The notes beneath the pieces were generated by a model. That model was given only the letters and a program-made list of their open reading frames with translations. It was not told where the DNA came from and searched no databases. 64,000 nucleotides of DNA from Cylicocyclus nassatus (lineage: Eukaryota > Nematoda > Chromadorea > Rhabditida > Strongylidae). Location of the stretch: NCBI GenBank assembly GCA_958299035.1, contig CATQJL010000223.1, forward strand, positions 77,269,600-77,333,599, written 5' to 3'. Below, piece by piece: positions 25,799 through 64,000 of this stretch (position 1 is the stretch's first letter; every line of letters starts with the position of its first letter). A program made the translations under genes and the position numbers.

Positions 25799-28700
25799 AT
25801 GGAACCAAATCAGCAACCTGAAGTTCGCAGGCGCGGACGCCCTCGCGTCTTCGCATCGGATGCGGAGCGCCAAAGAAATCATCGGAGCATTGAAGGAGAA
25901 AGACAGCGTGCTCTGCGGCTCAGTGCAGATGCAGAACGTCATCTGCTCCAACGTCAGCACGAGGATGCAGAGCAACGCTCTATCAGACGCACTCAAGATT
26001 CGCAACGTCATCGCGAAGAGCGCGGAGTTGAAAATGCGCAACAGCGAGCTGCCCGTCTGATGGCCATGACTCAGCGTAATCAGAGGCGTCGCGATGCCGA
26101 GGATCTCCTCGAAGGTGCTGAAAGACGTCTTGCTGATGCGCAACGTCAACAGAGGCGACGTGAGGGAGAAAATGTCGAAGAGCGTGCACGCCGTCGATCT
26201 GAGGATATGCAACGGCAGCGAAGAACTCGAGCGGTTGAAAGTGAGGAAACTCGGTCTGCACGTCTTCTCCAGGACACACTACGTCATCAAAGACGTCGTC
26301 AGAATGAAAGCAATGATGAACGCGCTGAACGCCGTTTTGAAAATGCTGAGCGGCAGCAAAGGCGACGCCAAACTGAAAGCATAGAAGACCGTGCTCAGCG
26401 TCTTTTAGAGCAGAATCGGCGTCAACAGAGGTTGCTGCAGAATGAAACAGATGAGGAGGGCTTTGAACGCCGAAGAAGGAATGCAGTGCAGCAAAGACTG
26501 CGCCGTGAGCGGCAAGTTGAAGAAGAAGAAGAGGCAGAGGTGCAAGAAAATCCTGAACGTCACCCTGGACAAGACGAAATTGATGGCCAACAGGTGTTAG
26601 ATGTAACGGCTAATGGGAATCGACGGCGCCGGAATGTTGCTCGCACCCTTGGTATAGCACTCAGATTACGCACGACGACCGAAAACTATCTGGGAGAGCT
26701 CGATCATCGTTGCGTTAATTGTGGGGCACTACATTTCGGTTTTGAGGTAAAGCAGCAGCACGTTGATACATTTGGTGATTGCTGCGATTATGGACGCTTT
26801 AACCTGGACTTTTTTGACGATTTTCCTGTGCAGATAAAAGAATTATTTCTGCCAGTTGATGCAACACCAAACATGAGACAACGTCAAAACAACTTTTTCA
26901 ATAATATCAGAAACTTTAATTCCGCTCTAGCTATGGCGTCCATGGGCGCTCAAGTAGACGTGCCCAGGGGAAGGGGTCCATACTGTTTTCGGATTCATGG
27001 TCAAATTTATCATCAAATCGGCCCCCTACATCCCAACCACGAAGAGCAAAGACAGTACGGACAGATCTATATACTGGACACTGAACTGGCTGCTCAACAG
27101 CGCTTAGGGATTGCGCAGAACGCGAACTGTGACTCAGACCTAATGCTTTATCTAAGTGAATGGTTTGTGCGCAATAACATCTATGCGCAATCATTCAGAA
27201 TGATGCATGAGGTCGAGAAAGCCGAAGAAGAAGCTGCGCGACGTGAAAACAGGCGGCCGCCAGTAATCAAAATGGTGTTCGAAGACAATAGAGAAAGAGG
27301 CATCTCCCGAGGTAGATATTGTGTACCAACTTCCAATGAAGTTGCGGTTGTTTACGTTGGGGACGGCAACGATGTACCTCATGTAAGAAGGTTAGCCGTG
27401 CACTTGCGTGAGCCAGAAGGCGCCGCTTTGACGAATCTTAGCGATATTGACAAAAGATGCGATCCCCTAACTTATCCCCTCTTATTTCCGACAGGAAGGG
27501 GCGGTTGGGATCCTACCCTCATGGATAGGAGAGGAGTGCGCATCACGCAAATGAAGTACTACTCATATCTTTTGTCAATACGAGAGACTTTTAATCCGAT
27601 TCTCCACGCAAAAAAACTCTTCCAACAATTTGCAGTTGACGCATACGTGAAGATCGAACAAAATCGCCTAAACTACCATCGAACGCACCAGGTCAACCTT
27701 CGAGCTGACTCCTATAGGGGTCTACAAGATTATGTGGCTGGCGAGGAAAGTAATGGGCCTCCGGGAAGTCGTATCGTGTTGTCATCTTCACACATTGGGA
27801 GCCCCAGAGCCATGCAACAGTCTTATCAGGATGCCATGGCAATCGTCGCGCGCTTTGGAAAACCAACATACTTCCTTACCATGACATGTAATCCTCAGTG
27901 GAGAGAAATACAGGATAATTTATACGAGGGACAAGTCGCATCTGATAGGCCTGACTTATTGGCTCGAGTGTTTCACGGAAAACTGAAAGAGTTATGTGAC
28001 GACTTATTCAAAAAGAACGTTCTCGGAGAAGTGGCCGCTTACGTCTATGTAATTGAATTCCAAAAGCGAGGTCTTCCTCACTGCCATATGCTTTTGACCA
28101 TGAAAAGTGGTTGGAAAGCAGAGACAGTGGCAGATGTAGACAATGCCGTATGCGCAGAAATTCCGCGCCAAGATGAAGAACCGCAAGCATTTGCGGCTGT
28201 CACAAGTTATATGATTCATCGAAAGTGCGGTTCTGTAGACCCGCATTCACCGTGCATGCGCGATGGGAAATGCTCAAAACATTTTCCTAAGCGATTGCGT
28301 GATAGAACGTCAGTGGAGGCGGATGGCTATCCAAAATATAGAAGACGGAATCGCACCAGCATTCTGATAAACGGCATGTCCTACAGCGACGAGTGGGTCG
28401 TTCCCACAAACCTCTACCTCCTCACGAAAATGAAATGCCACATCAATCTTGAGATTTGCGGGACGATCTCGGCGGTCAAGTACCTCTACAAATATATCTA
28501 CAAAGGACCTGATCGTGCGCGTATAACAATTGAAAGTGGTGGTGATGAGGGAATCGTTGACGAAATTAAACAGCATTTAAACACACGTTATGTATGTCCG
28601 CCGCAGGCTCTTCACCGAATTTTCGGTTTTCCCATGCAGGACAGATCTCACACTGTGTTCAGATTGGCTGTTCACCTTCCAGGACACCAAGTCGTACATT

Positions 28701-30775
28701 TTATTGCTGGAGAGGAAGAACAGTACCTAAATCGCGCACAGACCATGTATACGACACTCACAGCATTTTTTGAGTTGAATGTACGATGCTCTAGAGCCTT
28801 TGATAATGGCGAACCTACGGACCTAACTGTGGATGCCCGCGAACTCTATTATCACGAAATTCCAGAACATTTTACGTTCTCTGCCCGATATGGCTGGAAG
28901 CCAAGGAGACGAGGAGGCAAGGAAATCGGTAGAATGTACACCGTATCACCGCGAGATACTGAACGTTACTGCCTCCGGATACTTCTACTCAATACAAAAG
29001 GAAAATGTTCGTTTGAGGATCTTCGCACAGTTGATGGGCAAACTTATAGAACTTTTTCGGATGCAGCAAAAGCTTCGGGCTTCCTGGACGATGACACCTA
29101 CTACAGACAGAGTATACAGGAAGTAGTTCAATTTCAAACAGCGGCTACTTTGCGAAGCTTTTTTGCATGTCTGCTCTGCTATTGCGAAGTAGCAGATGCA
29201 CAAGAACTTTGGAATGAGTTTGTGATGGCAATGAGTGACGATTATGTGAATCGAGGCCTCGACGAACAGGAATCTGCTGCGATGGCGTATTTCGATGTAG
29301 CAGATAAATTGTCACTTTTAGGGAGAGATTTGAGGCAGCTTATAAGACCTCCTGCAAACATGCGCCCTGTTATTCCAAGTGACACAATAGATTACGAACA
29401 ATACCGCAGTGAAGGAATACGTCTTTATGAAACATTGAATGCTGATCAGAAAAGGGCAGCCGACGACATTATTGCAGCCATGGAACGCAACTTTGATAGG
29501 TGCTTTTTCATTGATGGTCCGGGAGGCACAGGAAAAACTTATTTGTACACAGTGCTGTACAACATAGCTGTGGCTCAGCGCCGCCGTGTGCTCTGTGTGG
29601 CGTGGACCGGCATCGCTGCGAATCTGCTTCCGGGAGGACGAACTGCAATATCAGCGTTTAAGCTCAACATGGCGGACGGTAATCGTTCGTCATTAATGAA
29701 AAGGCAACAACGGGAAGCAATTGAGCTTTCGGCCACTGAGGTCATCATCTGGGACGAAATCTCTATGGCACCAAGATGCTCGCTCGAGGCCGTCGACAGC
29801 TTGCTTCGTGACATCATGCAAAATGATAGGCCATTTGGAGGCAAGTTGTTCATAGTCGGTGGGGACTTTCGTCAGATTTTACCGGTCATCGAGCATGGTC
29901 AGAGAGAAGACGTCGTCGAAGCATGTGTCACGAGATCCCCGCTCTGGACCCTCTTCAAGGTACACCGGCTTCAGATAAACGTGCGCGCTCGGGAAGCAGG
30001 GGGCGATTGGCACAAGTTCCTTTTAGAAATCGGAGACGGATCGAGCGGCGAAGATGGACGCGTTACTTTGAATGAAGATATTATTTGTACTACCGACAAT
30101 ATCGTGACGGCTATTTTTGGCGAAGTCATTGATACAAATGAGACTCTTTATGAACGGGCCATCTTGGCTCCAAAAAATGTTAATGTTAAACAACTGAATG
30201 ATGACGCGATGCAACGTCTACATGTAGATAATGAATGCGACGAGAAAGTTTATAGAAGCATAGACGATGCTATCCTTCATGAAGGGGATTCCGAACTCTA
30301 CCCGGTTGAGTATCTTAACTCCCTGGAACCATCAGGAATGCCTCCTCATAAGCTGAGACTGAAAAAGGGAGCCATAGTTATGCTTTTGAGAAACCTCGAT
30401 GTAACTAACGGCCTTTGCAATGGCACACGACTGAGGATTGAAACCCTAGGGCGTTTTGTCTTAGGTTGCCGTTTTATCTGTGGGGAACGAAGAGACCAGC
30501 CAGCCGTTATTCCGAGGATCGATAACTATTGCGAAAAACTACTACCATTCCGACTGAGAAGACGTCAATTCCCCGTTAAAGTCGCGTTTGCAATGACGAT
30601 TAATAAGTCTCAGGGGCAGACATTTGCAAAAGTTGGTGTTTATCTCCCTGAAGATGTATTTAGTCACGGGCAGCTGTATGTTGCCTTCTCCCGAGTGCGA
30701 ACACCGGCCGGCCTGAAAGTGAGTACACCAACAAGAACAGTTCGAAACATTGTTTTTGAGGAGGTTTTGCTCTAA
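25799..30775 (+). CDS. Helitron Rep/helicase protein (RepHel), 1,658 residues
   Basis: This is the single-strand nickase and helicase that drives rolling-circle-like Helitron transposition in the nucleus. An in-frame TGA 24 nt upstream leaves ATG 25799 as first start. Residues 10-17 form an AT-hook-like RRRGRPRV. Residues 22-228 are nine arginine/glutamate-rich repeats of exactly 23 residues. A Cys/His cluster ([12 protein letters not shown]) follows near 300. The Rep domain shows LTMTCNPQW near 692, the two-His motif GLPHCHMLL near 758 and the tyrosine pair in YLYKYIYKG near 895. The C-terminal Pif1-type helicase has Walker A GPGGTGKT near 1239, Walker B IIWDEIS near 1315, [10 protein letters not shown] near 1350 and NKSQGQTF near 1601. 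All catalytic motifs are intact and no introns are needed. Confidence in the function is high; the role of the repeats is inferred. Confidence 0.95.
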
Positions 30776-44939: not shown

Positions 44940-46600
44940 GTAATTTTGGCCGCAGAAATTAGGCCCAGGGTAGATGATCCTGCGACCTTCAGCAAAGCCA
45001 GGAAAAGAAGGAACGTTCGAAAAACGTGGCGGTAGAATGACGAAGTGCAAAAGGTCATAGAAAGAGATGCGTACAAGTTATGGCATAAGACGAAATTGGA
45101 TGATGAACGCCAAATTTAGCAACAAGCCAGAAGCGCTGCGAAAGCTCTTGCAAAGAAGGCAAAACAGGTGTACATAAAAGAGCTCCACGGTCAACTAGAA
45201 TTCCGCGCGGGAGAACTTGAGATATACCGGACAGCGAGAAGAAGAGCGGAGTTCAAAAAAATGTGGAGCACTTTCTCAATATCAAAGACAAACTTTATGG
45301 GACTCTAAGAACACCGGCGGACATCACTGAAAGACGTAGAACCTACTTTAGAGGCTGCCACAGGCCGCAGCGTTAACTCCATCCCAAGAGCTGACCCTGT
45401 AAACGATCAGTACTACTACGATGTATGGCTATAACGAAAAAAAGAATGGCAAAGCGAGTGGATCAGATGACATAAAAGTGAGTTCTGGAAAGTGTGTGGA
45501 CAATCCGGGCTTCCTGGCTATTAGGCCTTCTCAATCAGATTATAAGAAGCAAGTGTCAGCCTCGTGATTGGTATACCAGCACAATGGTTGCGATTTGGAA
45601 GAGCAAAGGGGACGTCGCAGACTGCGCATCTCACCGGCCAATCAGCTGATGAGCCACATTCTAAAGATCTTTAAGCGATTAATCGAAACGTGCCTTAGAA
45701 ATATCATACAGTTATCGTCAAATCAATGTGGATTTATGAAAGGAGTAGGTAGAACCGACGCAATCCACTCGATAGTGACGGGGAAATACAGAGAGAAGCA
45801 GAAAAATTGCATGCAGCCTTCCTGGACCTGGAGAAAGCCTTCGATAAGGTACCCCATGAAGTTATATGGTGGGCCTTACGGAAACACAGGAGAGGAACAG
45901 TGGATAAAGTTGATCTACCACAACCATTCAAGCCACGTGCAAACAGCTGCAGGGCAATCGAAAGAATTCCAAATTAAGGTAGGAGTACACCAAAATTCAG
46001 TTCTCTTTCCTTTGCTCTTCAGCACTGTGATGAACGCCATGATGGAATCACTTAGACGTGAGCTTCCTTGGAGACTTCTTTACGCAGATGATGTTGTCTT
46101 GTAGCAAGTACCAGAAAGGAGTTGCAAGATGAGGTAGAAAATTGGGAAAACAGGCTAGAGTTATATGGCTTGAAACATCGTGCCTTTATCTGTCCAGAGC
46201 ACTGTATGGCAATGAGTGCTGGCCATTTAAGAACAAGGAGCGCAAGCTTAGTATCATGAGAACAATGATGCCTCCGAGGACCTTAGAAGAGTCACACTAA
46301 AAGATCACATCTACAGTGATACTATACGAGCTCGAATGAAAGTAGCTCCAATTGCCCAAAAAGTGCATGAAAGAATGCTACGATGGTATGCGGATGTGCG
46401 CGCAGAGGGGAATAAAATCACATTGCGAACTTAGCCCCGGCAGTGGAGGCACTAGGCAAATAACTCAGAGGCAGGCCCAAAACGAGGTGAAAGAATTTAG
46501 GCCGCTTTGCAAGAAATTGGAATAGACGAAGACCTCGCCTCAGATTGGAAAACGTGGAGATGTCTGACAAGAAAAGCAGACCCTGCGTAAGCGGAACACT
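44940..46600 (+). pseudogene. RTE-type retrotransposon, reverse-transcriptase part, decayed
   Basis: Several frames in succession match RTE-clade non-LTR retrotransposons. They are: a linker (near 45060-45200: YKLWHKTKLDDE, ARSAAKALAKKAK); reverse transcriptase (45600-46104: HILKIFKRLIETCLRNIIQL, NQCGFMKGVGRTDAIHSI, HVQTAAGQSKEFQIKVGVHQ and the catalytic LLYADDVV); and a C-terminal region (to about 46600, ADPA near the end). Stops and frameshifts are frequent. The open frame stops directly after YADDVVL. Not functional. Confidence 0.8.
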
Positions 46601-48455: not shown

Positions 48456-50006
48456 CAGTGCTGGTCAAAACTATAGATCCACTCTGAAAACTGCTGTAAC
48501 TCATCTGCTTCTCAACGAATTGATCTGAAATTTTGTGTGTTCAACAGGCGGTAGTCCATCAGTAGTTCCATCAGTAGCGGGTCCCGCTTTGGTTTGATTG
48601 CTCAGGAAAAAATCAAATCAAAATCAAATCGAAAAAAGCAGGCTCGAAGGTTGGCCAAAACTATAGATCCACCTAAGATTTATGTCCACTAAAGTAATTC
48701 TCAGCTTCCAAAGTCTTTTGTGCATATACGTAGTTGAAAGTCAAGGCAGTGGCTTTAGACCAGCTGTGTCATACCTTTATAAGAAACGCTTATCTGCTTT
48801 TTTTCACTCAAAAGTACTTTCATGCGTATTTTGTTCCTGAGAATGTGTTTTTACAGGGGATTCCGCACTTTTTTGACTGGTTTGAAAGCGAAAGGGCTCC
48901 ATTTATCTTATAGATGCTTAGCAGTGTGCGCAGTAGAAAAAAAATTTGTGTTTTCGTACCCAAAACGCACCCGGCATAGACCTAACCGCAGGCCTGCGTT
49001 CAAATTTATGCCTTCAAACTCTTTCTGCAATGCTGTCACGAGCGTGAACTGAAGTAATGACATTGTTAGTATGTATGAGAGTCCGTGTGCAGTAATTGCA
49101 GATTTCTGCAGATCCTGGTATGCAGGCTAATTGAGGACTTCATCCTGCAAAAAGTGATTTGCAACAAGCCCTGAAGTTATTTGTGGTTCTGATTATAATG
49201 CTTACGTGAGTCACAAGGCGACACACGATACAGGGTGTATTCACTAGATAGCAGCTAGATAGTGGCCAAAAACAAGGAAGGTACCACTTGGTAGGTACTT
49301 TGAAAATGCCGAACACACCGCGGACTCATGCTTAAAAAAAGGATTGAAATGCGACTTCGCAAACAATCGTGACTATAGTTTACAAACTTCTTTTTATGTA
49401 AATAATGCTAAATAATGCTTCTACGTTATTTTGAGCTTACAGAAATAGCACGCACCAATTTTGAAGGCAAAAATTCGAGCGTGCTTGCTGTTAGGCTTAT
49501 GCCAGGTGCGCCTGGGTACGAAAACTCGAATTTTTTTCTGCTGCTCACACTGCTAAGCATCTATAAGATAAATGGAGCCCATCACTTTCAAACCAGTCAA
49601 AAAAGTGCGGAATCCTCTATAAAAACACATACTCGGGAACAAAACAAGCATGAAAGTACTTTTGAGTGAAAAAAAGCAGATAAGCGTTTCTTATAAAGGT
49701 ATGACACAGCTGGTCTAAAGCCACTGCTTTGACTTTCAACTACGTATATGCACAAAAGACTTTGGAAGCTGAGAATTACTTTAGTGGACAAAAATCTTAG
49801 GTGGATCTATAGTTTTGGCCAACCTTCGAGCCTGCTTTTTTCGAAATTTTTGATTTTTTCCTGAACAATCAAACCAAAGCGGGACCCGCTACGATCGATG
49901 ATGGAAGCCCTTGAACACACAGCTGTACCAAATTTCAGATCAATTCGTTGAGAAGCAGATGAGTTGCGGCAGTTTTCAGAGTGGATCTATAGTTTTGGCC
50001 AGCACT
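48456..50006. repeat. Tc1-like palindromic element, 1.55 kb
   Basis: The ends CAGTGCTGGTCAAAACTATA and the inverse (TATAGTTTTGGCCAGCACT) lie in TA contexts. Each arm carries a second copy of the CTATAGATCCAC motif about 190 bp inside (near 48662 and 49802), so the transposase-binding sequence is doubled. The arms are alignable for about 480 bp, and the centre (48940-49530) is unrelated single-copy sequence. The right arm recurs at 61771-62243 as part of the duplication. Confidence 0.8.
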
Positions 50007-50483
50007 ATATATTTATGACAAGGTAACAACTTTTGTTGATCTCGCTAGAATTTCACTTCGTATCGTTTCGTATCGTCACAGCACATAACGAACAGTGGTT
50101 CAGAAGTGCTCTCAAAATTCCACCGACTGACCGCTTTTTTTCACTTTGACTGCTTTCACTCCATAGACCACCACAAAGTCGAAACAAGTCAAAGTAAGCT
50201 CATACATCATATAAAACAGGGGTTTGTGCTAAAAGGCGAGAGAGCACTTAGCTTTTTCAGGATAGATTTTTTGGGGATATAACCACCTCTCAAAAGGTAG
50301 GCAATCTGAGCTTTTCTAGCCTTGTGTCCGACGCTTTTTTCTCAGGAACCGAAGATCGTTCCATGATTGTGACTAGTGAGCGCAAAACATGTTCTTACTA
50401 CTCTACAATTTGGTCCCAAACCTTCCATTCCTGATTGAGTAATGGGTTCCGAAAGAAACCTGAAAATTCAACGTTTTTGCTGT

Positions 50484-50700
50484 CATACCGTACTTGATCC
50501 ACTTGGTCCATCTGATCCGCTTGATCCGCTTGATGCGCTTCGTGCAACACGCGCGCATACAGCAATTTGTTATCTGGTGCCGCGTAGGTAAAAAGGAACT
50601 TTGTATGGTTACGCAAATTCGCCTACGCGACGCCAGATGACAAATTAGTGACGCGCATTTTGCACGAAGCGAATCAAGTGGATTAAGAAGATTAAGTATG
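50484..50700. repeat. Inverted repeat with TGATCCGCT tandem units
   Basis: The left arm carries TTGATCCACTTGGTCC and TGATCCGCT repeats, then GCGCTTCGTGCAA. The right arm is the inverse with fewer units (TTGCACGAAGCGAATCAAGT). The spacer includes CCTACGCGACGCCAGATGAC and its inverse. The minus-strand frame reading DQADQMDQVDQV is a by-product of these repeats. Repeated at 62721-62937. Confidence 0.6.
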
Positions 50701-50929
50701 GTGGCGGGTGCCTAAGACTCAATCATGAGCGCCCTCTGTAGAGATGTATTGCTCATGACGCATGGATTCTGGAAAACAGTTGCATACGATCTATGCAGGT
50801 AGTTGTGAAAGCAATCACCCATGATTAATTAGAGCTTTATGGAGCGCTTAAAAAGATTGAATGAAAGGGCAGCGAATTCTGCGAGCATCACCGAAATCAA
50901 AGCAAATCATATTTTTCGCCGCTGACAAA

Positions 50930-52120
50930 TTATAAATAAATCTGTCTGTATGTTTGCGAAAGAAAATTTCAAAATCGATTCAAACCGAACTCCATACGGC
51001 AGGGTAGGGCTGATGTCGCCGATAGGTCCACCCAGAGCGCGGCAAGAGTCCTGTTCTAGGCTTAAAGACCTAACCTAATTTTTTCGGACCCACAAAAACA
51101 ATAAACTTCTTCTTTGCTTTTTCGCCTCAAAATAAAGTCTAACCTACTTCCAAACGATCTGTGCCGAGCCCTGGCTTCACACAGCGCAGACACCGGCACA
51201 TATCTGTATTGTCTGCAGATGCCCGCGGGGGACCACTTTCTTTTGGCGACGTACAGTCTTCTACCCCGCACAATAGCGGGACGAAGCGGTTGTCAGGACC
51301 TGCTTTTCAACATTGATCAGTATCGATTCTTTGGTTCTTTTGCAAACTTTGAGCTAGCCTTTGATGCAAATGGTTTGGGGACTGGAAGGCGAGGCTTTTG
51401 ACCTATAGGCTCCCTCGCGCCTGCAACGCAGTCTGCCTCTCTCCCGCGCACTTCTTCTCTGATCATTACCTAGCCTTAATTAGGTCACGAAGCTCCGCTT
51501 TCCAGCCGCCAAGCCAATTGAATCAAAGGGTATGTGGTTGAAAGTTGGCACAAGAGGGCGGGTGAGCACCTAATACGAATAAGATATTGATTTCTAAATT
51601 TAGCGATTATCCTCATGTTTTATCGATTTTTTTGACTTGGGCTAGGCGCTGCGAGTTGGCACGGGATGCTAAGTGAGAAGAATGACGACAAAAGCAATCT
51701 TTCTTTTAGTGTTACCAATAGCCGTTTCAATCTTTTTCAAAGTGTGTGCTACAGGGCTGGGAATGGCACGGAAAGAGAATGGTGAGGGTAGTTGGTTATG
51801 CTGTGCTGCTAAGGGTAATGCTTATTAAGAATACTGCTAGTCTTTAGAATCATCATTTGCCTTTATGGATGTTTCTTCAAAAACTTTAAACGAGGGGAGG
51901 GGAGTTAGTACAGGGATGTAAGCGAAGACGCAGCAAATACGGGGAGATGGTATACAATGGAAAGTTTCTGGCCTAAAGTACTTCGTACTATTCGTGTACT
52001 GTCTTTAATGCGCAAATAAGGATTGATTCTGTTGGCGCTATAGGCTAATTCAAAGATTGAGTCATGCATGTAGTCAAGAAAGCGCAAACGGTACATTAAA
52101 GCAGAAGTAATTCTTTACCT
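50930..52120 (+). mobile_element. Helitron-like non-autonomous remnant carrying other elements
   Basis: Starts around ATAAATAAATCTGTCTGTAT and contains AAATCGATTCAAACCGAACT, then several GAGTTGGCACGGG and TTTATCGATTTTT blocks. These match the interior of the Helitron at 21657-23388. It is interrupted by the inverted-repeat pair at 51001-51267 and the P1 MITE. The 3' end was not identified. Confidence 0.45.
51359..51531. repeat. Palindromic MITE, family P1, copy C
   Basis: The right arm (CTTAATTAGGTCACGAAGCTCC through AATTGAATCAAAGGGTA, split here) is well preserved and the left arm is degraded. It is inserted in the Helitron-like sequence. An identical copy D is at 63596-63768 within the duplicated block. 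Confidence 0.75.
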
Positions 52121-52200
52121 ACGCTAGTGCTAATGTCCTTCAAGTAGATCTGAAATTTTACATTCGCAAAAGATCCAACTAAAAACATCAAAATAAGTAC

Positions 52201-52795
52201 ATGATCAGTTGCGCTTATGGTTATGTGAAGGTTCGGCAGTTTGCCAAGAGGGAAGAGGACGAGAATTTAGATATATTTCGGCGAGTGCTGGGCATGTTCA
52301 AGCTTGCAAAATAAGTGGCATCGTCATTCCATGGTTGCTAACTGCATTCTGGTTCAGTTTGGCGAGTCGTTGTAAAAATGTTGCACCCGAGATTGTCGTA
52401 GATGAGCTTGACCTAGAAGACTCCAAAGATGTGTCTTCTGAGTCCGAAGAAGAGCACGAAATTGCAGACGTGCAGGAGGAGCAGATGCTCGGGCCTTCTT
52501 CACGCCCTGGTGCGTTACGCATTAACTTTCAGGAAAGAAGTCTAGGACTATTTAACATAATATTTAACTCCTCTCAAATTTGCGCGGGTAACTAAGCATG
52601 TTATAGATGCAGTACGACAAAGATCGAAATCAACATCAGACGCTGAGCAATCGCCGAGGAAACGTTCCAAAACGAACAGCCTCAAGAAGAATCAGATGAA
52701 AAGAAGAGCAAAACACTAATGAAAAAATCTGAAAGAAAACCACAGATTGTCACATACAGCTCCGACTCCGATGAGATTGAACTTTAACTTGTTTT
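52201..52795 (+). CDS. Weak candidate: fragment of an acidic/basic nuclear-type protein
   Basis: Not a recognised family. A 37-codon frame (52201-52314, …VRQFAKREEDENLDIFRRV…) is followed by an acidic frame (52382-52516: DELDLEDSKD, SESEEEHE). A donor-like GTGCGT and an acceptor-like TAGATGCAG allow joining in frame to a basic stretch (RQRSKSTSDAEQ, PRKRSKT). Another frame ends YSSDSDEIEL at 52787. Several frames are open at once, so I cannot choose one; the locus may be a decayed gene or low-complexity chance. Confidence 0.2.
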
Positions 52796-54338
52796 ATAAG
52801 TTATGTGTTTGTATATATTGTATATGTGCTAATTTGTTTTATTAGCTATGTGATTGTGTATGCTGTGTATGCAAAAACCTAAATACCTTGTCAGGAGTTG
52901 ACATGCTTTATGAGGGCCCTTCTCGTCCTCCTGACATTCCCCTTTCCAAGACTTTCTAAAAAAAATTTCCAAAAATTTTTCAGAACGACTATTAATCCGC
53001 GATCATTCAAAAACCCACAATCTACTATTTCTCAAACCTTAGATACACCAACTAAGGCGATGGCATCTCTTAGACCCTTTTGCTTTCTTGTCTTATCTTC
53101 CCGACACCCACATATTTTTCTAAACTTTTAGATTACCTTACTTTTTTTTGAACATTCGGAACATACGAATTTTGAACATTATTTAAAAGCTTTAAGTATT
53201 TCAACTAAGGCCCTAGCATGTTCTCGTCTCTTTTGCCTTGTTCTCCCCAAAATTTGCTGATTTCTTCCGATTACGGGAAAAAATCGAAATTTTGGAAAAA
53301 ATTGGAAAAATTTTCGAAACACTTACATGCATAGGTATGTTCCTGCGTGCCATAGCCCGCGATGCGTGCCATTGCACGCGCGAGCGTGCATTTGCACCAG
53401 TCGGGTAAGCCGTGCATGCCATTACACGCACTGCGGGACACTGCACGCTTTGAGTGCAATAGGGCGCACCTTGAATCTTTGCACTTGAGCTAAAAAGCCA
53501 AAAGTTTCTGTATGCATGCTAGCTCGTAATCGTAATCTTTTCCCCAATTTTGGACTCTGGATAGGTGTGAATCAAGCTTCGATTTTTTGTTTTGAAAAAA
53601 AATGAAACTCGACATTAAAAATTCAAAAAACCTGTTCAGACGCAGTATGATAAAATTCAAAAAATTGTGGGTTGTTTTCTTGAGCTATCTATCTGATGCG
53701 AAGTTTTGGTGAATTGTGGGTGATTTTTAGAAAACAGAATTCTCAGAAATTGGCAAAAAGTCGATTTTCCAGATAACGGGTTACGGTAAAGCTGGAGGTC
53801 TGCAATTTTGCACACAGTGCTGGTCCGTGCCTGACTACGGCATAATTTTTTTAAGAATTTGAGGATCACTTTGGAGCGAGTTATGAAAAACCTGGTTCAA
53901 GACCAGGCCATAACTCGAGAGTGGGCGGGACTATGACCAAAAAATCCTCCAGGTCAAACTGTTCCGGGAGGAACTTGGGCCGAAAGACAGTTGATGGGGG
54001 CCCGTACGGCGGGCTGAAGTTTCCTGGGTGAGCCTATTCAATTTTCCTGCGGGTTTCCTCCAGTAAATAAAAGTCTGTGCAATATATCATATCGGTGTGC
54101 AATATACACAGCTATAACGGTGATTTTTCGCTGGTCAACGCGAATGCATAGAATGTAAAAATCATTCATTACCGCGTAAGTTCGAAATTGAAAAGTAAGT
54201 GTAATAATGTAATAAACTTGTAAGCTGTTGAACAGCTTGAAGTTCTGAAAGTTAAGAGATGAATAGCTTGAGAAGTTCGTTGCGAAAGTATCGCGAATGT
54301 AGAAATAGGAACGGATGTCAGTCTATGAGAACATAACA
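52796..54338. other. Intergenic, small hairpins only
   Basis: Contains a GC-rich TGC/GCA cluster at 53338-53450 and a cruciform-like hairpin at 53877-53917 (CGAGTTATG…CCTGGT and its inverse). No gene supported. Confidence 0.4.
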
Positions 54339-54344
54339 TTTATT
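54339..54344 (-). promoter_or_regulatory. Polyadenylation signal AATAAA
   Basis: On the minus strand, AATAAA lies about 15 nt after the stop codon of the microexon gene, a normal spacing for compact nematode 3' ends. Confidence 0.7.
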
Positions 54345-54359
54345 TACAATATTCTGCAT

Positions 54360-57300
54360 TCAGAAGTAGTAAGAGACACCCTCGCAGTCGTTCTTACAGT
54401 TCCAGAGATCCACGCCGTGCTTCGACAAATCCGCGTCACATTGTTGGGCGCACTGTAAAGTTAAAGGTTTTCAATTTAAGTTTGAATAATATAAATAAGA
54501 AGCCTACCGTGAGAGTATTCGGTTCTTTAACTACAGGACCAAGACCTCCAGAATTAGGGACTATTGATTTCTGAAAAGCAAATAAGCAACTTGAAGGGTG
54601 TCCGGACAAAAACTCGATTTTGCGGTTTTATGCTTACCCGGGCCTATTCGCTATGCTGAACCCGAAAATTCACATGGGAGAGCGCAAACGAAGAAAAAGG
54701 GCTCTAACACTGGAGGGAAACACAGGTGCGATAATGTGGGAATTTTCTCACCCCCTCTTCACCCCTGAGCTGGGACCAAGGTGACCCCCTTCATCAAAAG
54801 CCGAGAAAAAAATCAACAATGAGGTAAGGTTAAGCAAAGGAGATATTTGTACGTGAATTGTTCATGAATATAGAAGGAGGAGTCTGTTGAAAAAAGTGCC
54901 TGGTGAAGGGTGTGCCTAATGATTTCTGAGAATTTTCGAGTTTTTAAAATAAAAAATCCGTAACTACTGCAGATGAATAGCTGGTGCAAGGAAATAGTGA
55001 CCATCGGAACCGTCTCGCCCTCCGCTTTCAAAAAATATTAGGTTGGTCCGAAAGTTCTTGCGCATCATTTTCAAAAAATCATAACTTCCTTGACACTCGA
55101 TGGATTTCGTTGGGATTACATGTATTCGAAAGAAGAATCCATTCTCTTTACAGCAGTACCTCCGGCATGAATTACTCTGGAAAACTTCAAGAGTTAGAAG
55201 CAGTTGAATAAAATCAGTCAAGATTGGCATTTTTCGAGCTGGGTCACGAAAAATTCTGAAAGTATTTTTATTGGATAGAGAAAATTATTCTCATTACAAT
55301 GGTACCTTTTTCATGAATTAAAACGAAAAAGATCGAGAGTTAGGAGCAAATAAACAGAATTTCTTCAGTTTTGCAATTTTTGAGCATGCTTAAAAAAACC
55401 TAAAAACGTCACAGAAAAGGTGGGAAAGTCATGAACATGGGTTTTATGACCTTCTCTTTTTAGATGAATGAAAATCGTGCTAATCGAGAGCAATTTTGAT
55501 TTTCGTGAAAAACGCAGGCACGAAAATCCGAAAAAATCACGAAAAACCAAATTGCTCCCGATTGGCACGATTTTCGCTCATCTAGAAAGAGAATGTCACA
55601 AAACCCATATTCATGACTTTCCCGCCTTTTCTGTGACGTTTTTAGGCTTTTTTAAGCATGCTCAAAAATTGCAAAACTGAAGAAATTCTGTTTATTTGCT
55701 CCTAACTCTCGATCTTTTTCGTTTTAATTCATGAAAAAGGCACCATTGTAATGAGCATAATTTTCTCTATCAAATAAAAATACTTTCAGAATTTTTCGTG
55801 ACCCAGCTCGAAAAATGCCAATCTTGACTGATTTTATTCAACTGCTTCTAACTCTTGAAGTTTTCCAGAGTAATTCATGCCGGAGGTACTGCTGTAAAGA
55901 GAATGGATTCCTCTTTCGAATACATGTAATCCCAACGAAATCCATCGAGTGTCAAGGAAGTTATGATTTTTTGAAAATGATGCGCAAGAACTTTCGGACC
56001 AACCTAATATATAGCATGTCTGAGATCCATTCAAAAAAGTACGTGGGTGAAGGGTGTGCTTGGTGATTTTTGAACATATTCGCGTTTTTATCATAAAAAA
56101 ATTCATAACTTTTGTAGATGAACATCTTGTACGCCGAGATGGTCACCATTGGAACCCTCTTGTCCTCCGCTTTCAGAAAATATATACTTTACCTGAGGTC
56201 CCTCAAAAAAAGTGCCGGGTGAAGGGTGGGTGAGACTTTTATAATGGGAGTGCTCAAGTACAGGCTTTTTTACCATTGTAAAAATGCGTCTACTTGAGCA
56301 CTCTCATTATAAAAGTCTCACCCACCCTTCACCCGCCACTTTTTCTGATGGACCCCAGGTAGAGTACATATTTTCTGAAAGCAGAAAACGAGGCGGTTTC
56401 AATGGCAGCCATACCGGTGTAAATTATGTTCACCTTCAGAAGTTACGGATTTTTCTATCCTAGAAACTCGAAAATATCCAGAAATCACTACCCACACTCT
56501 TCACCAGGCACATTTTCGACAGACTCCAGGCAAACTATATATTCTCTAAAGCGGAAGACAAGGTGGTTTCAAAAACATTTACCTTGCTGACGTTGCTGTT
56601 CTCTACAGAAATTACGAATTACTTCTTTGAAAAAAAATTCGTAAATGCTTAAAAATTGTCTAACTCTTTCCGAAACAAATGTTCTCCATGCATATCTTCT
56701 TTGGTAATTCCAAAAACAGGCAGGGCGATGTAAAAAAGGGAAAAAGGAAGGTAAAAAAAATACAAGGTGCTGGTCAGAAATATAAATGTGTGCTAATCCA
56801 GCAGCGTATCGGTTCACATTTCAGAAAAAAGACAAACAGTGATGGTAAGGAATTGGAGATTATGAACTCTGACTAGGAAAAATGATGGCTCCTCCCCGCC
56901 GTCGTTTTATGATTTCTCTACCAAGTAAAACTGTGACCCCCTTCACCCTAGAGGAGTCATTCTCGCCTTATCGCACCTGTGGAGGGAAATCAGCAAGTGG
57001 GCGGGGTCTCCCCCACTGTGAATTCGTGCTTCCAGCTTCCAGAGCAATCTTCTCGAATCCGTTAGCCGCCCTGACATCATTACCGATCAAGTGCAAATGA
57101 ATGACTTGAAACCGGAATCAAAAAGATCGTCTTCGAAGCTGGAAGCGTGAATTCATCGTGGGGAAGACCCCGCTCACTTGCTGATTTCCCTCCAGTATTA
57201 GAGCCCTTTTTCGTCGTTTTAACGCTTTCCAATGTGGATTTTCGGGTTCAGCATAGCGAATAGACCCGGGTAAGCACAAAATCTCAAAATCGAGTTTTTG

Positions 57301-59910
57301 CCCGGACACTGCCTTTAAGACGAATTAGGCTGGAAGGATCTGACCGAAGATGGAAGCACAATTGATCCAAAGTATGAGACGCTAGAACTCTTGAAAGAGT
57401 CACATATTGAGGGTATACATTTATTAGATTGATGTGCATAATTCCCGCACCAAAATAGGTACAGACCGCAATAATCCGCAATAATCCTATATCCCAAATA
57501 GGATTCGACATATCTATAGATAGAGCAAACCTAGGTTCTACAAAATAGCCCTTGAAATTTTGCAGCAGGTTTGTCCAAGCGAAGAATGAAGCTAAAAGCG
57601 GAAAAGATTCAAGCTCCCCAAAAATCCAAGAACAAATTGGAATTTCGTTCAGAAAAAGGCTTCAAAATTTCTAACCTGCTCATCCATTGTCATTTCGTAT
57701 AAGACATTTCTCTATGCAGTTGCTGTATTTTTTCTCAGCTAGAAATTGAGGAAACGAAGTTTTTCACGTTTTTTCCAAAAGAATGCTGAGATGTTTTAGC
57801 ACTGGCAGTTGTGCACTACAGGACCTTAGAAACATGAGTGTGAATTTTCAGCTTTTTACAGCAGCTGGTTTACGAGAAATATCAAATTTTTATCAACTAG
57901 GCAAGAAAAATTCGGGTAAGGAGAGCTAGATTCGTCATTTCTTGTGAACTAGCTGTTTGAGAAAGCTGAAAATGTAAAGTTTTACTGCTAACGGCATGTG
58001 CTATACAACTGTTATGCTAGAACAACTTAGCACTAATTTTGCAAAGACATGGAAAACTTCGTTTCCTCAATTTCTAGCTGAGAGAAAAATACAGCAACTG
58101 CATAGAGAAATGTCTTATGCGAAATGACAGTGGATAAGCAGGTTAGAAATTTTGAAGCCTCTTTCTGAATGGCAATTTTCTCATGGTTTTTTGGGGCGCA
58201 TGGATCTTTTTCGTTTTTGGCTTCAATCTTCGTTTAGGTCAAAGCTGCTGCAAAACTTCAAGCACTATCTTGTAGAGCTACGTTTGCTCTATCTAATAAA
58301 TATCGAATCCCATTTGAGATATAGGAATATTCCGAATTATTGCGGTTCGTACCTATTTTGGTGCAGGAATTATGCATCAACCTAATACATGTTCTCCACA
58401 AGCCCAACTGATTCTGTAAAACTAACCGAAGATGAGGATGATCTGCCGCTGTTAGAGGAGAATTTGGAACTCTGCAACAAATCAACAATTTTCAAAGTAA
58501 GATTGCTGAATGTGAAAAGGAACTAACCAAGTTTGAATTTGAACTGTATTCAGTTTTAGGAAAGGAGCTAGAACTCTACAAACCAGTAACTTAATCAAGT
58601 TCGTTGACTCTTTTAAAAAACTAACCGAAGATGACGATATGCTATTTCCATAATTTCCAAGTTTAGAAGAGTAGCTTGACTGTAATATATCATATGACCA
58701 AGAGTAAGCTAAAAAGATTAGAAAGAACCAACTGGATTCTGTAAATTGTTGGCTTGTTTAGCAGCTTCAGAATTCTGTAAAACAATTAAGATAGCTCTAA
58801 GAACAAATCTGATTAACTTAGAGTTCCAACCGTGGAAGAAAGTGCACCAAGACCATTTTTAGGCGAGCCAGAATAGCCAGAACTCTGTAAAAAAACCATA
58901 TTAAGATTTAGCTTGATTAACTTACAAGAAAAGAAAAGAACTAGAAAGCTAGAAAGTTGGAAGGTTAGAAAAGAACTCAATTTAGTCGAATATAAATTGC
59001 TTAATTCATACTTGTCAACAACTCCGTAAAAATCACATAACCTTATGAGCAGAATTCACAAAAAAAGAAACTGACCAGAGACGTTTTTGAGTATGAAGTG
59101 TCGGGAGTTAGAAAACGACTCTGTAGAGCAATTAGAACATCAAGAATAAGCTAGATTGATACGAAAAATGGTCTGACCTTTAATTGAGAACTAGCACCAA
59201 CATTGGAACTCTGGAAAAAAGTCTCAGTTTAGTTGAATATACTTTGCTTAATTTATATTTGTCAGCGATTGTAAAAACCACATAATCTTATAGGGCAAAA
59301 TTTACAAGAAAGAAACTGACCGGAGACAAATTTGAGTTTGGAGAGGAGATTTCAAAACGACTCTGTAGAGCAATTAGATAACATCAAGATTGAGCTAGAT
59401 TGATACGAAAAATGGTCTGACCTTTAATTGAGAACCAGAACCAACATTGGAACCCTGGAAAAAAGTCTTAGTTTAGTTGAATATAGTTTGCTTGATTTAC
59501 ATTTGTCAGCGATTGTAAAAACCACATAATCTTATAAACAAAATTTACAAGAAAGAAACTAACCGGAGACAGTTTTGAGTTTGGAGAGGAGATTTCAAAA
59601 CGACTCTGTAGAGCAATTAGACAACATCAAGATTAAGCTAGATTGATACGAAGAATGGTCTGACCTTTAATTGAGAACTAGAACCAACATTGGAACCCTG
59701 GAAAAAAGGATATTATGACATTGAATTTGCGTCGATATGCGGAGAACTGACCGGACTGTAAGAAGAGTACCTGGAAGAGACTACGGAAGAACCTCCTCCA
59801 GACACTCCTCCTAAATAACGTGACCCAGATAACCCATATGAATAAAGAGAAGCATCCACAGCAGCAAGTGCTACTACCATCAGCAGCAGATCAGACAGCC
59901 AAATGTGCAT
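54360..59910 (-). CDS. Secreted serine-rich protein encoded by phase-0 microexons, about 276 residues
   Basis: No known family recognised. Minus-strand exons: 59910-59752 (ATG), 59697-59665, 59605-59564, 59454-59422, 59362-59321, 59210-59178, 59120-59076, 58884-58831, 58774-58733, 58679-58626, 58575-58528, 58471-58427, 57389-57345, 54570-54508 and 54452-54360 (TGA). Every exon is a multiple of three and starts in phase 0. Residues 1-20 form a signal peptide (LLLMVVALAAVDA, then SLYSYG). The middle is Ser/Asn-rich (SSSSFPKTEYSSNSNL-like). Exons 2-7 are three copies of a pair encoding GSNVGSSSQLK and SRFEISSPNSKLSP. The last exon carries C-x3-C-x13-C-x3-C (CAQQC…CKNDC). An acceptor-like AATTCAG precedes the ATG. 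Except where transposons sit, introns are mostly 50-60 nt. Probably a secreted surface or matrix protein (inference). The exons at 58831 and 58733 have weaker donors. Confidence 0.75.
54721..56980. repeat. Nested inverted-repeat element with CACAGGTGCGATAA ends
   Basis: It begins CACAGGTGCGATAA and ends with the inverse TTATCGCACCTGT(G). GGAGGGAAA occurs directly before and after it, giving an 8-9 bp target duplication; the uninterrupted sequence is visible in the sister copy at 11763. The interior is built from units of about 200 bp (AAGTGCCTGGTGAAGGGTG … TCCGCTTTC): two direct, then inverted copies around a hairpin at 56200-56345. The type is hAT- or MULE-like by target-site length (inference). 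Confidence 0.75.
55038..56007. repeat. 970-bp fully palindromic mariner-like element (third nesting layer)
   Basis: The ends TTAGGTTGGTCCGAAAGTTC and the inverse are flanked by TA on both sides. The arms of about 475 bp are nearly perfect, with the centre near 55520. Same family and same length as 1263-2232. It is inserted in one of the 200-bp units of the element at 54721-56980. Confidence 0.9.
57424..58385. repeat. 962-bp palindromic mariner-like element in a microexon-gene intron
   Basis: The ends TTAGATTGATGTGCATAATT and the inverse (…AATTATGCATCAACCTAA) are flanked by TA. The arms are alignable throughout and centred near 57905. The interior differs from the 970-bp family. It lies between exons 12 and 13; without it the intron would be about 73 nt. 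Confidence 0.85.
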
Positions 59911-61770
59911 CGTTTACTGAATTGGAGATTTCATATAACATCAAATTCAAGATCATTTCACATCACTGGTTTTATGATTTTGAGCTAACAAAAAGTAGTT
60001 GTGTTATAGTTTCAATCGTAACAAGATATAATGTTGACTGTAAGCTAAGTAGCTTGTTAAGTTTTTTTGCTGCGCATACGAGTGATTGCTTTTAAGTGCT
60101 TACTGTGTACTTTATTTCTGTTAAGTGCTTTCTTCTTCATCCAAAATTGATGATATTTGATTTTCTCATTAAAGAGGGTCGCCACGTCATCTTATTGTCG
60201 AACAAACACGCAAATTTGCTTGACTTGCTTTCCAATATTTGGGCCTAATTTTTCATTTTGCAATCCACAAATGAAAATTGAGCATTGCTCAATTTCATTT
60301 GTGGATTGCAAAATGAAAAATTTGACTAAAAATTTGAAACTTTTGAGTTACTTCGAAAATTGAGCATTCTTTGGCATTTCACTAATGAAGATGTAGATAA
60401 GAGCTCTTTGACTTTCCAGAGCATACACAAAAATTGTTGAAGGGTTGTTTATTAAATGCCTTTGGAAAGTAGTTTTTAGAATCTACATGGAGCTGTTGGA
60501 TTCAAACGAGCAAATTTGGGTTTACATTGGTTCGAGAGTAATTTGTGTATACTCCGCTGTAATCACAGTAGTAAGGATCTGACTATGGAGAAGACACAGC
60601 CACTGATTTCTCATTCATATGATTTTGTGTTACCCGGTATCGGTAAAATGGCGTCTTGAATTGGGTATTCAAAAGTTCATGCTTTCTACAAGGAAAGTAG
60701 TTGAATGTGGATCTAGTAATAACCATCTTTTGTGATCACCTTGCAAAATGTATTTATCCCTCGAATGTGATGATAGAAATTATAGTTTGCGCTAGTCACA
60801 AACCACGTCGGCTGAAACCTAGCTTTGTAGATAGTGAGAGAAAGATACTTACTTTATAGGAAGTTGCTTGAATTTTAGGCAAATACTCTCTTTTTATACT
60901 CATGATTTCTCACAGGTAAACGAAAATTCACATAGTACTCATTCGCTAAACAAACAATTGTGTTTGTAGGATCAATAGCTAAATATATCTGTGTCGGCAC
61001 TTTCGAAAACATACTTTTATCTGTTTGTGCAAATTTTATGCCCACGTAAAAACACTTATCTGTTTGAGCAAATTTTCATAAACTTACACCATTATTTACA
61101 AACGCCCACGTAAGCTTGTGCCTCTCTTTGTTCAGTATGCAGGTTTTGCAATAGATTATGTGGTATGCAGAAATTGCTATACAAGAATCTTTCCTAACGC
61201 TACAATAAATGGTGAGTAGAAGCTAATTCGAATCACCCACTTCAGCATAGTTGGTGGATTGTGGTTTGTTCATTATTCTCAAAAACAACAAATAAACACG
61301 AAAACCTCAATGAAAAATACGTCAATTTAAAGGTAATAGAGTGAAGGGACAGAAGTCAAGAACAACAAGGCAATGAATATTTGCGCATCTTAGCCATCTC
61401 TATAAGCGTCTGATTGTCATCACATTTCGTTTCGTTATGGAGGTCTTATAGGCTGCTGCTGCATAAGGTCTGTCCGATTTGGATTTTTTGAGTTCAAAAT
61501 GTCATAAATAACTTTTTTCCAAGGTCTTATTTATTTGTGTTGAGCAGTTCCTTGGCTATCAGACACATATTGAGACCTGCGAAAATCCTTGTTAAGGAAG
61601 AAGCAAGAGCTCAAAAACTTCACAGCGTTTTCTTCAAATCTGTCTTTTTTGACATGCAATGCTCCCTTAGAGAATTGATAGCATCTTATACAACGATGGA
61701 TAAATAGAAAAAATTTTCGTAGATTGTTTAGCAACATGAAAGAGCCCGTAAGATCTGCGTTGCGAAGAAA
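59911..61770. other. Upstream region of the microexon gene
   Basis: Includes the perfect hairpin at 60248-60322 and otherwise unstructured AT-rich DNA, presumably with the promoter. No TATA-type element could be assigned. Short open frames here lack support. Confidence 0.4.
60248..60322. repeat. Near-perfect 38-bp hairpin without loop
   Basis: AATTTTTCATTTTGCAATCC is repeated inverted as GGATTGCAAAATGAAAAATT, meeting at AGCA|TGCT, with a single one-base gap between arms. It could be a tiny MITE or a hairpin RNA source. It lies about 340 bp upstream of the microexon gene's start. Confidence 0.75.
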
Positions 61771-64000
61771 TTTTCTGCTGCTCACACTGCTAAGCATCTA
61801 TAAGATAAATGGAGCCCATCACTTTCAAACCAGTCAAAAAAGTGCGGAATCCTCTATAAAAACACATACTCGGGAACAAAACAAGCATGAAAGTACTTTT
61901 GAGTGAAAAAAAGCAGATAAGCGTTTCTTATAAAGGTATGACACAGCTGGTCTAAAGCCACTGCTTTGACTTTCAACTACGTATATGCACAAAAGACTTT
62001 GGAAGCTGAGAATTACTTTAGTGGACAAAAATCTTAGGTGGATCTATAGTTTTGGCCAACCTTCGAGCCTGCTTTTTTCGAAATTTTTGATTTTTTCCTG
62101 AACAATCAAACCAAAGCGGGACCCGCTACGATCGATGATGGAAGCCCTTGAACACACAGCTGTACCAAATTTCAGATCAATTCGTTGAGAAGCAGATGAG
62201 TTGCGGCAGTTTTCAGAGTGGATCTATAGTTTTGGCCAGCACTATATATTTATGACAAGGTAACAACTTTTGTTGATCTCGCTAGAATTTCACTTCGTAT
62301 CGTTTCGTATCGTCACAGCACATAACGAACAGTGGTTCAGAAGTGCTCTCAAAATTCCACCGACTGACCGCTTTTTTTCACTTTGACTGCTTTCACTCCA
62401 TAGACCACCACAAAGTCGAAACAAGTCAAAGTAAGCTCATACATCATATAAAACAGGGGTTTGTGCTAAAAGGCGAGAGAGCACTTAGCTTTTTCAGGAT
62501 AGATTTTTTGGGGATATAACCACCTCTCAAAAGGTAGGCAATCTGAGCTTTTCTAGCCTTGTGTCCGACGCTTTTTTCTCAGGAACCGAAGATCGTTCCA
62601 TGATTGTGACTAGTGAGCGCAAAACATGTTCTTACTACTCTACAATTTGGTCCCAAACCTTCCATTCCTGATTGAGTAATGGGTTCCGAAAGAAACCTGA
62701 AAATTCAACGTTTTTGCTGTCATACCGTACTTGATCCACTTGGTCCATCTGATCCGCTTGATCCGCTTGATGCGCTTCGTGCAACACGCGCGCATACAGC
62801 AATTTGTTATCTGGTGCCGCGTAGGTAAAAAGGAACTTTGTATGGTTACGCAAATTCGCCTACGCGACGCCAGATGACAAATTAGTGACGCGCATTTTGC
62901 ACGAAGCGAATCAAGTGGATTAAGAAGATTAAGTATGGTGGCGGGTGCCTAAGACTCAATCATGAGCGCCCTCTGTAGAGATGTATTGCTCATGACGCAT
63001 GGATTCTGGAAAACAGTTGCATACGATCTATGCAGGTAGTTGTGAAAGCAATCACCCATGATTAATTAGAGCTTTATGGAGCGCTTAAAAAGATTGAATG
63101 AAAGGGCAGCGAATTCTGCGAGCATCACCGAAATCAAAGCAAATCATATTTTTCGCCGCTGACAAATTATAAATAAATCTGTCTGTATGTTTGCGAAAGA
63201 AAATTTCAAAATCGATTCAAACCGAACTCCATACGGCAGGGTAGGGCTGATGTCGCCGATAGGTCCACCCAGAGCGCGGCAAGAGTCCTGTTCTAGGCTT
63301 AAAGACCTAACCTAATTTTTTCGGACCCACAAAAACAATAAACTTCTTCTTTGCTTTTTCGCCTCAAAATAAAGTCTAACCTACTTCCAAACGATCTGTG
63401 CCGAGCCCTGGCTTCACACAGCGCAGACACCGGCACATATCTGTATTGTCTGCAGATGCCCGCGGGGGACCACTTTCTTTTGGCGACGTACAGTCTTCTA
63501 CCCCGCACAATAGCGGGACGAAGCGGTTGTCAGGACCTGCTTTTCAACATTGATCAGTATCGATTCTTTGGTTCTTTTGCAAACTTTGAGCTAGCCTTTG
63601 ATGCAAATGGTTTGGGGACTGGAAGGCGAGGCTTTTGACCTATAGGCTCCCTCGCGCCTGCAACGCAGTCTGCCTCTCTCCCGCGCACTTCTTCTCTGAT
63701 CATTACCTAGCCTTAATTAGGTCACGAAGCTCCGCTTTCCAGCCGCCAAGCCAATTGAATCAAAGGGTATGTGGTTGAAAGTTGGCACAAGAGGGCGGGT
63801 GAGCACCTAATACGAATAAGATATTGATTTCTAAATTTAGCGATTATCCTCATGTTTTATCGATTTTTTTGACTTGGGCTAGGCGCTGCGAGTTGGCACG
63901 GGATGCTAAGTGAGAAGAATGACGACAAAAGCAATCTTTCTTTTAGTGTTACCAATAGCCGTTTCAATCTTTTTCAAAGTGTGTGCTACAGGGCTGGGAA
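61771..64000. repeat. Duplicated block, copy 2 (cut by window end)
   Basis: Matches 49534-51763 at an offset of exactly 12,237 bp with no length difference. Left of 61771 the two flanks are unrelated. The block starts inside the right arm side of the Tc1-like palindrome, so that element is only half present here. Confidence 0.9.

Follow-up and report, generated by a model that had tools for sequence, protein, structure and literature searches.

Genes for secreted proteins that are built of small symmetric exons are already documented in flatworms and, with the exons in another phase, in aphids, going by the published descriptions cited here. In the micro-exon genes (MEGs) of flatworms, symmetric exons of 6-36 bp are described as holding about 80% of the coding sequence (PMC5825161). 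Their products mostly bear a signal and are free of domains, and the short exons, which are divisible by three, permit many splice forms (PMC4413821). MEGs are reported to evolve fast, and one exon duplication, in a MEG-3 case, has been tied to a mobile-element insertion (PMC4350168); a looser exon limit found in the literature is 51 nt (PMC4317164). In its outline of helminth genomes, a review lists MEGs for schistosomes and, it seems, tapeworms, and finds no classical antigenic variation in worms (PMC4413821). Here, we describe a gene of related design from a nematode, Cylicocyclus nassatus. It lies on the minus strand, at 59910-54360, of a window of 64,000 nt (the whole stretch of DNA that was analysed, C223:77269600-77333599), and the genome assembly that was searched for relatives comprises 514,686,895 bases in 369 contigs. 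C. nassatus is a strongylid nematode that parasitizes horses. We consider it probable that the window carries a real gene of a small C. nassatus family, whose products are a secreted, serine- and glycine-rich and otherwise unstructured chain with a four-cysteine C-terminal tail, built of frame-neutral cassettes.

Like MEGs, the family has many short internal exons divisible by three, no known domain, fast change and exon duplication (PMC4413821, PMC4350168, PMC5825161); by inspection, its first exon is signal-peptide-like. As a design, with symmetric exons, fast amino-acid change and no known domain, the MEG-like logic that the original prediction saw in this locus stands; the published description of exon size does not apply to it. 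Internal exons make up 70% of the coding sequence, but they mostly measure 42-63 nt as against the 6-36 bp described for schistosome and tapeworm MEGs; only three of the 13 are 36 nt or shorter, which is 12% of the coding sequence, and ten pass the 51-nt limit. The family thus works like a MEG in its symmetry, lack of a domain and evolution, but, with the size feature failing and the splice variants putative, it is not classed as one. It differs further in being from a nematode and in its constant four-cysteine tail and serine-rich chain.

Two other systems come close. Aphid bicycle genes also combine a signal peptide, about 17 exons, of which the small internal ones are nearly all in one phase, and rapid evolution, but their internal exons are described as phase 2 with CYC motifs (PMC9168663). 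A gene of the bicycle type is ruled out here by the phase 0 exons and by internal exons without cysteine. HYP effectors are nematode secreted proteins, as those considered here are predicted to be, with repeated modules that vary in number and order while the frame stays unbroken. Their variable domain, according to the published account, is a single exon that varies by genomic rearrangement between alleles (PMC11228951), whereas in the window family each module is its own exon, which rules out single-exon variation of the HYP kind.

The original prediction held that there is no well-described nematode equivalent, and our literature searches agree: judged by title and the start of the abstract, none was among the matches listed. 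Three nematode papers mention 'microexon' (PMC6327390, PMC6465311, PMC4054779); in the text retrieved from them the term is a read-mapper option only. Within the reach of the searches, and among the literature matches listed, this is the first nematode with the symmetric small-exon design. Such a family in nematodes would add to the known cases, probably by convergence. With three diverged copies and different cassette sets in one genome, the origin, expansion and decay of exon arrays become directly testable.

A chain of symmetric exons and its paralogs

The predicted chain of 15 exons, with 13 internal exons of 33-63 nt, was recovered in full at the claimed positions (Table 1) with AG/GT borders throughout, and the paralogs agree with it. 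All 15 exons are multiples of three and every joint is phase 0; the deduced product has 276 amino acids. Nine of the 14 introns measure 50-59 nt, three 109-191 nt and the other two 1037 and 2774 nt. Frame neutrality of the internal exons, as had been claimed, holds for 13 of 13 and recurs in both paralogs. Both paralogs also have an exon 1 homologous to the first exon, which is signal-peptide-like by inspection, and both keep the four-cysteine exon 15, in line with the cysteine-bearing last exon that had been proposed. An AG before the ATG is conserved as well and suggests putative trans-splicing of the pre-mRNA.

The strongest evidence for the gene is comparative: two diverged paralogs have the same exon chain and frame. 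The first, C223b (C223:70757251-70755151), has 17 exons with intact borders, codes for 319 amino acids and has no large intron; the second, C316a (C316:79594249-79592857), has nine exons with intact borders and codes for 190 amino acids. As modelled, the internal exons are symmetric in these genes too (15/15 in C223b, 7/7 in C316a), and none of the three gene models has an in-frame stop before its end. Genome searches scored only the best candidates, which makes the family size a lower bound. With exons 14-15 as query, seven rows were returned: the window gene and an identical copy (two exons each) as well as C316:79592860-79592961 (41% identity, E 6.7e-4), C223:70755154-70755252 (48%, E 9.7e-4) and C316:79601831-79601923 (42%, E 0.024). 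The last of these, C316b, is a truncated, decayed fragment with an in-frame stop in its last exon and, by eye, a second one in its exon-13 homologue. With exon 1 as query, there were four matches among four scored candidates: the two identical copies, C223b and C316a. At least four loci therefore carry the signal exon, two of them identical. Matches to the start context at C223:70764008 and 70744727 were read and are not family members.

The identical copy is part of an exact tandem duplication. Its unit spans 49534..61770, and at an offset of 12,237 bp there are 12,241 consecutive identical positions (49534-61774). The second tandem copy lies mostly beyond the window and carries a letter-identical gene. 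This 12.2-kb exact copy arose very recently or else is an artefact of assembly.

A search of a large protein collection with a profile built from the three family proteins returned a single entry, P0001, among 7990 scored candidates. No flatworm MEG was among what it returned, and no direct comparison with flatworm proteins was made. P0001 is named 'unnamed protein product [Cylicocyclus nassatus]' at its source and is encoded on C316. It follows C316a with 45 residues of exon 1, up to an earlier donor that is still between codons, and then with exons 8, 9 and 10, whose borders are exactly those drawn beforehand from the sequence. The deposited model joins exon 1 directly to exon 8, past exons 2 and 3, with the frame kept, and 95 of the 190 P0001 residues lie inside the C316a gene. 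P0001 thus supports three exons of C316a and their unusual donors, as an annotation model whose own basis is not stated. The window protein itself had no match at E <= 0.01 among 2267 candidates, a search of limited reach that missed P0001 as well, and its last 51 residues gave one candidate and no match. This copy therefore seems not to be annotated. Such genes seem poorly annotated in general: of the three distinct loci, a deposited protein was found for one only.

The shuffle and segment tests support the gene without being the main proof. Open symmetric exons with plausible splice sites were chained by dynamic programming at an exon penalty of 4 bits, with splice matrices of C. elegans-like values that were not derived from the C. 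nassatus genome. The chain scored 25.7 over about 1450 nt, with 12 exons (11 listed and one unlisted of 15 nt). None of 300 dinucleotide shuffles, run at this one penalty, reached it (mean -0.4, maximum 6.2). Shuffling does not keep tandem repeats, and for this reason the region without the 243-bp repeats described below gives the fairer figure: there, 6 of 1000 shuffles equalled the observed score. Among 228 native segments, taken from both strands of the window up to 61770 and about 20 kb of flank with the gene included, the gene scored 21.3 with 11 exons and the best segment off the gene 8.3 with two exons. When frame was ignored, a splice-only chain found 8 of the 11 listed exons at penalties of 4 and 2, the others being fused or misplaced, and 1 of 11 at a penalty of 6. 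Since splice sites by themselves mis-pick the exons, the frame carries information beyond them.

Cassette turnover among the gene copies

Reading the three gene models side by side shows every exon as a frame-neutral cassette; cassettes have been duplicated in pairs, resized by whole codons and lost through splice-site decay, with both ends of the protein in frame. A tree was built from the internal exons of the three genes together with 40 nt of flanking sequence; support was weak at several of the deeper nodes and at some inner ones. Exon types are consistent across the genes: a (exons 2, 4, 6), b (exons 3, 5, 7), exon 8, exon 9, e (exon 10), f (exon 11), g (exon 12) and exon 13.

Aligned sequences show that different exon pairs have evidently expanded in different gene copies. 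The window gene has the a-b pair (33/42 nt) three times, as a 243-bp unit that comprises both exons with their introns; a fourth copy is decayed. In C223b the a-b pair occurs once; instead, a 299-bp unit with exons e and f occurs twice (89% identity), and exons f and g (48/45 nt) recur in units of about 192-200 bp (about 76% identity). The equal phase of the exons is partly a legacy of few ancestral exons and is therefore not 13 independent coincidences.

Length changes point the same way. Eight exons are comparable in all three genes when exon 8, whose end is uncertain in the window gene, is omitted; not counted as exons were the one in C316a that a palindrome has overrun and the two in C223b that lack a donor. 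All eight length steps across the paralogs are multiples of three (6, 12, 3, 3, 3, 3, 6, 12), against two of seven steps in the introns, with intron 8 corrected by 9 nt (Fisher p 0.007).

Exons also died without loss of frame. In the window gene the fourth repeat copy lost its type-a exon in this way, and C223b lost the two exons without a donor. At C316:79593250-79593470, in C316a, an inverted repeat overran the acceptor side of an exon that is, by eye, probably of type g, and the frame is unaffected. Exon 8 of the window gene may be on the same path. Its place was confirmed as predicted, but not its donor: the donor present in both paralogs is gone from the window gene, and the one proposed for it, 9 nt further in, is weak. 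The exon may be skipped or trimmed, and the frame would be identical either way. The frame is constrained and the sequence less so.

The encoded protein and the case for exon skipping

Exon 1 starts with a hydrophobic stretch that ends in alanine at about residue 20, and inspection finds it kept in both paralogs. The chain after residue 20 is 32% serine and 10% glycine in the window gene; serine amounts to 39% and 26% in the paralogs. Cysteine occurs there four times, each time in the last exon and never in an internal exon. The four are spaced C-x3-C-x13-C-x3-C in the window gene, with x10 in place of x13 in the paralogs, and the tail is invariant in the three proteins at the four cysteines, at H, G, D, L and W and at two Y. 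No Pfam family matched the window protein at E <= 1, and the PDB held no sequence relative of exons 14-15. Modelled as a single sequence, exon 15 gives two helices at low confidence (mean predicted local distance difference test score 63, predicted template modelling score 0.25), compatible with a disulphide-pinned helical hairpin and no more. The alpha-hairpinins are helical hairpin peptides of the form C-x3-C ... C-x3-C. The four-cysteine spacing and the two modelled helices are like theirs, but with a model of such low confidence and no sequence match to a solved structure this is a resemblance only.

Amino-acid change is fast. The proportions of replacement and silent differences per site are 0.17/0.26, 0.28/0.36 and 0.23/0.22 for the three gene pairs. 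Exon 14 stands out with 15 replacement against 1 silent difference, 19 against 2 and 12 against 2. Exon 15 shows the reverse trend, with fewer replacements, in the pairs with the window gene (p 0.096 and, against C316a, 0.011, both uncorrected), and so does exon 1 after residue 20 between the window gene and C223b (p 0.007, uncorrected). Strong positive selection across the gene is not supported; the excess is confined to exon 14 and is marginal.

Alternative splicing is a plausible proposal. A donor usually has a purine at position +3, and donors with a pyrimidine there are weak. Of the donors modelled in the three genes, 35 of 38 have a pyrimidine at +3, mostly as GTTAGT and GTCAG-like sequences; the doubtful donor of exon 8 is counted among the 38. 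Common descent of the exons would account for part of this excess, and the background frequency with which it is compared is a general one and not that of this genome. We infer that the pre-mRNA is trans-spliced and the protein secreted, and that the cell can also skip cassettes, by which one locus may give several related chains whose signal peptide and tail stay constant. In our view, variety arises mainly from turnover of cassettes at the DNA level between copies of the gene; exon skipping would be a facultative extra. From composition, we guess that the protein acts at the interface of worm and host, as a mucin- or adhesive-like secretion of the surface or of glands that changes rapidly.

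Several observations weigh against this picture. The frame neutrality of exons by itself is no proof of skipping, because duplication of one symmetric exon yields it anyway. In P0001, exon 1 stops earlier than in our models, and after exon 10 the deposited model departs from the gene to a region 4.8 kb downstream. The case for secretion comes from inspection of exon 1, and the ratio of nonsynonymous to synonymous substitutions, 0.6-1.0 overall, is also expected from relaxed constraint; for exon 14, Fisher tests on the three pairs leave a marginal excess (p 0.046, 0.058 and 0.48, uncorrected). The symmetric chain shrinks to four exons when the exon penalty is raised to 6 bits, and by the C. elegans-like matrices the donors of exons 8 and 9 and the acceptor of exon 13 are weak.

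Two other explanations share with the preferred one the part that was read from the three genes, namely frame-neutral cassettes and their turnover. All exons could be constitutive, and the small exons of equal phase would then be the footprint of repeated duplication of one symmetric exon in a low-complexity structural protein (adhesive, sheath or mucin-like), with no purposeful variants. The exons fall into few types with shared starts, the chain is 26-39% serine and the introns have diverged to the same order as the exons, all of which suits a constitutive gene, whereas the unusual, weak +3 pyrimidine of most donors, judged against a general background, and the in-frame joint of exon 1 to exon 8 in P0001 speak against one. 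We regard a purely constitutive gene as possible and lean somewhat against it.

The opposite extreme would be a full analogue of the schistosome MEGs, in which regulated or stochastic skipping at each locus gives many secreted variants and diversifies what the host sees. Symmetric internal exons, a signal-peptide-like exon, the lack of a Pfam domain and high amino-acid turnover match the published MEG descriptions (PMC4413821, PMC4350168), and the weak donors fit as well. However, few of the exons are of MEG size, and the family is small, with four loci found to carry the signal exon, two of them identical. Skipping, with the splice and protein variants that it would yield, is a proposal made from DNA; this speaks for constitutive exons and against a full MEG analogue. 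To the latter we give a tentative place, likewise short of probable. Rather doubtful is a more specific variant, an independent nematode micro-exon system with few loci, weak donors (pyrimidine at +3) and combinatorial secreted variants at the host interface, whose set of cassettes is reshuffled by pairwise exon duplication between copies.

It is very improbable that the exons line up by chance or that the locus is a pseudogene. In favour, exon 8 is without the family donor, the acceptor of exon 13 is weak and C316b is clearly decayed, but a chance reading is ruled out by the shuffles, by the native segments and above all by the two diverged paralogs, which keep the frame through whole-codon length changes, with no premature in-frame stop in three models.

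Feature positions and mobile elements

The positions of the exons, of the signals at both ends of the gene and of the insertions in its introns are given in Table 1. Mobile elements account for the two long introns. The compared paralogs are without the elements of introns 12 and 13, and without them intron 13 would be 51 nt long; in the paralogs it measures 48 and 50 nt. As both introns are short once the elements are removed, the locus was a compact gene before the insertions.

Table 1. Features of the gene and of its introns, in window positions.
Feature	Position	Strand	Evidence or remark
Putative trans-splice acceptor AG, 6 nt before ATG	59917..59918	-	AG-TAAACG-ATG common to all three genes
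Exon 1, 159 nt: ATG, signal-peptide-like start, then Gly/Ser/Tyr-rich chain	59752..59910	-	Homologous first exons of 177 and 165 nt in paralogs
Exon 2, type a, 33 nt	59665..59697	-	Exon chain, exon tree
Exon 3, type b, 42 nt	59564..59605	-	Exon chain, exon tree
Exon 4, type a, 33 nt, second copy of 243-bp unit	59422..59454	-	Repeat detection, exon tree
Exon 5, type b, 42 nt	59321..59362	-	Repeat alignment, exon tree
Exon 6, type a, 33 nt, third copy of 243-bp unit	59178..59210	-	Repeat alignment, exon tree
Exon 7, type b, 45 nt, whole-codon difference	59076..59120	-	Repeat alignment, exon tree
Fourth repeat copy, decayed, without its type-a exon; exon 8 follows	58885..58989	-	Repeat alignment; both paralogs have a similar relic there (by eye)
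Exon 8 as originally listed, 54 nt, weak donor	58831..58884	-	Donor score 0.1; comparison with paralogs
Exon 9, 42 nt in all three genes	58733..58774	-	Paralogs; donor weak in window gene, score -0.6
Exon 10, type e, 54 nt	58626..58679	-	Exon chain, exon tree
Exon 11, type f, 48 nt	58528..58575	-	Exon chain, exon tree
Exon 12, type g, 45 nt	58427..58471	-	Exon chain, exon tree
Palindromic mobile element, 966 bp, at a TA, in intron 12	57422..58387	.	73 nt of intron remain without element; intron of C223b 70 nt
Exon 13, 45 nt, weak acceptor	57345..57389	-	Has homologues in both paralogs
Nested mobile elements with inverted ends, 2716 bp, in intron 13	54597..57312	.	Flanked by two near-copies of a 7-base target
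Exon 14, 63 nt, replacement differences in marginal excess	54508..54570	-	Exon chain, substitution counts
Exon 15, 93 nt with stop, ending C-x3-C-x13-C-x3-C	54360..54452	-	Exon chain, paralogs
AATAAA poly(A) signal, 15 nt past stop	54339..54344	-	Kept in both paralogs

One pair of arms of the nested palindromic elements is about 980 bp long and 94% identical. Stretches related to these elements are found at other places in the window and over the 30 kb that follow it. An Rfam scan of the window gave no match. Two further traces of mobile elements lie on the plus strand. At 25778-30775 a single open frame of 1665 amino acids without internal stop carries Helitron_like_N, PIF1 and Pif1_2B, as in a Helitron-type mobile element protein, and at 45568-46104 there is a reverse-transcriptase fragment, with RVT_1 at 29.5 bits just under the Pfam cut-off of 29.6. 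A tandem array of 61-bp units (4.3 copies, 89%) occupies 22646-22904.

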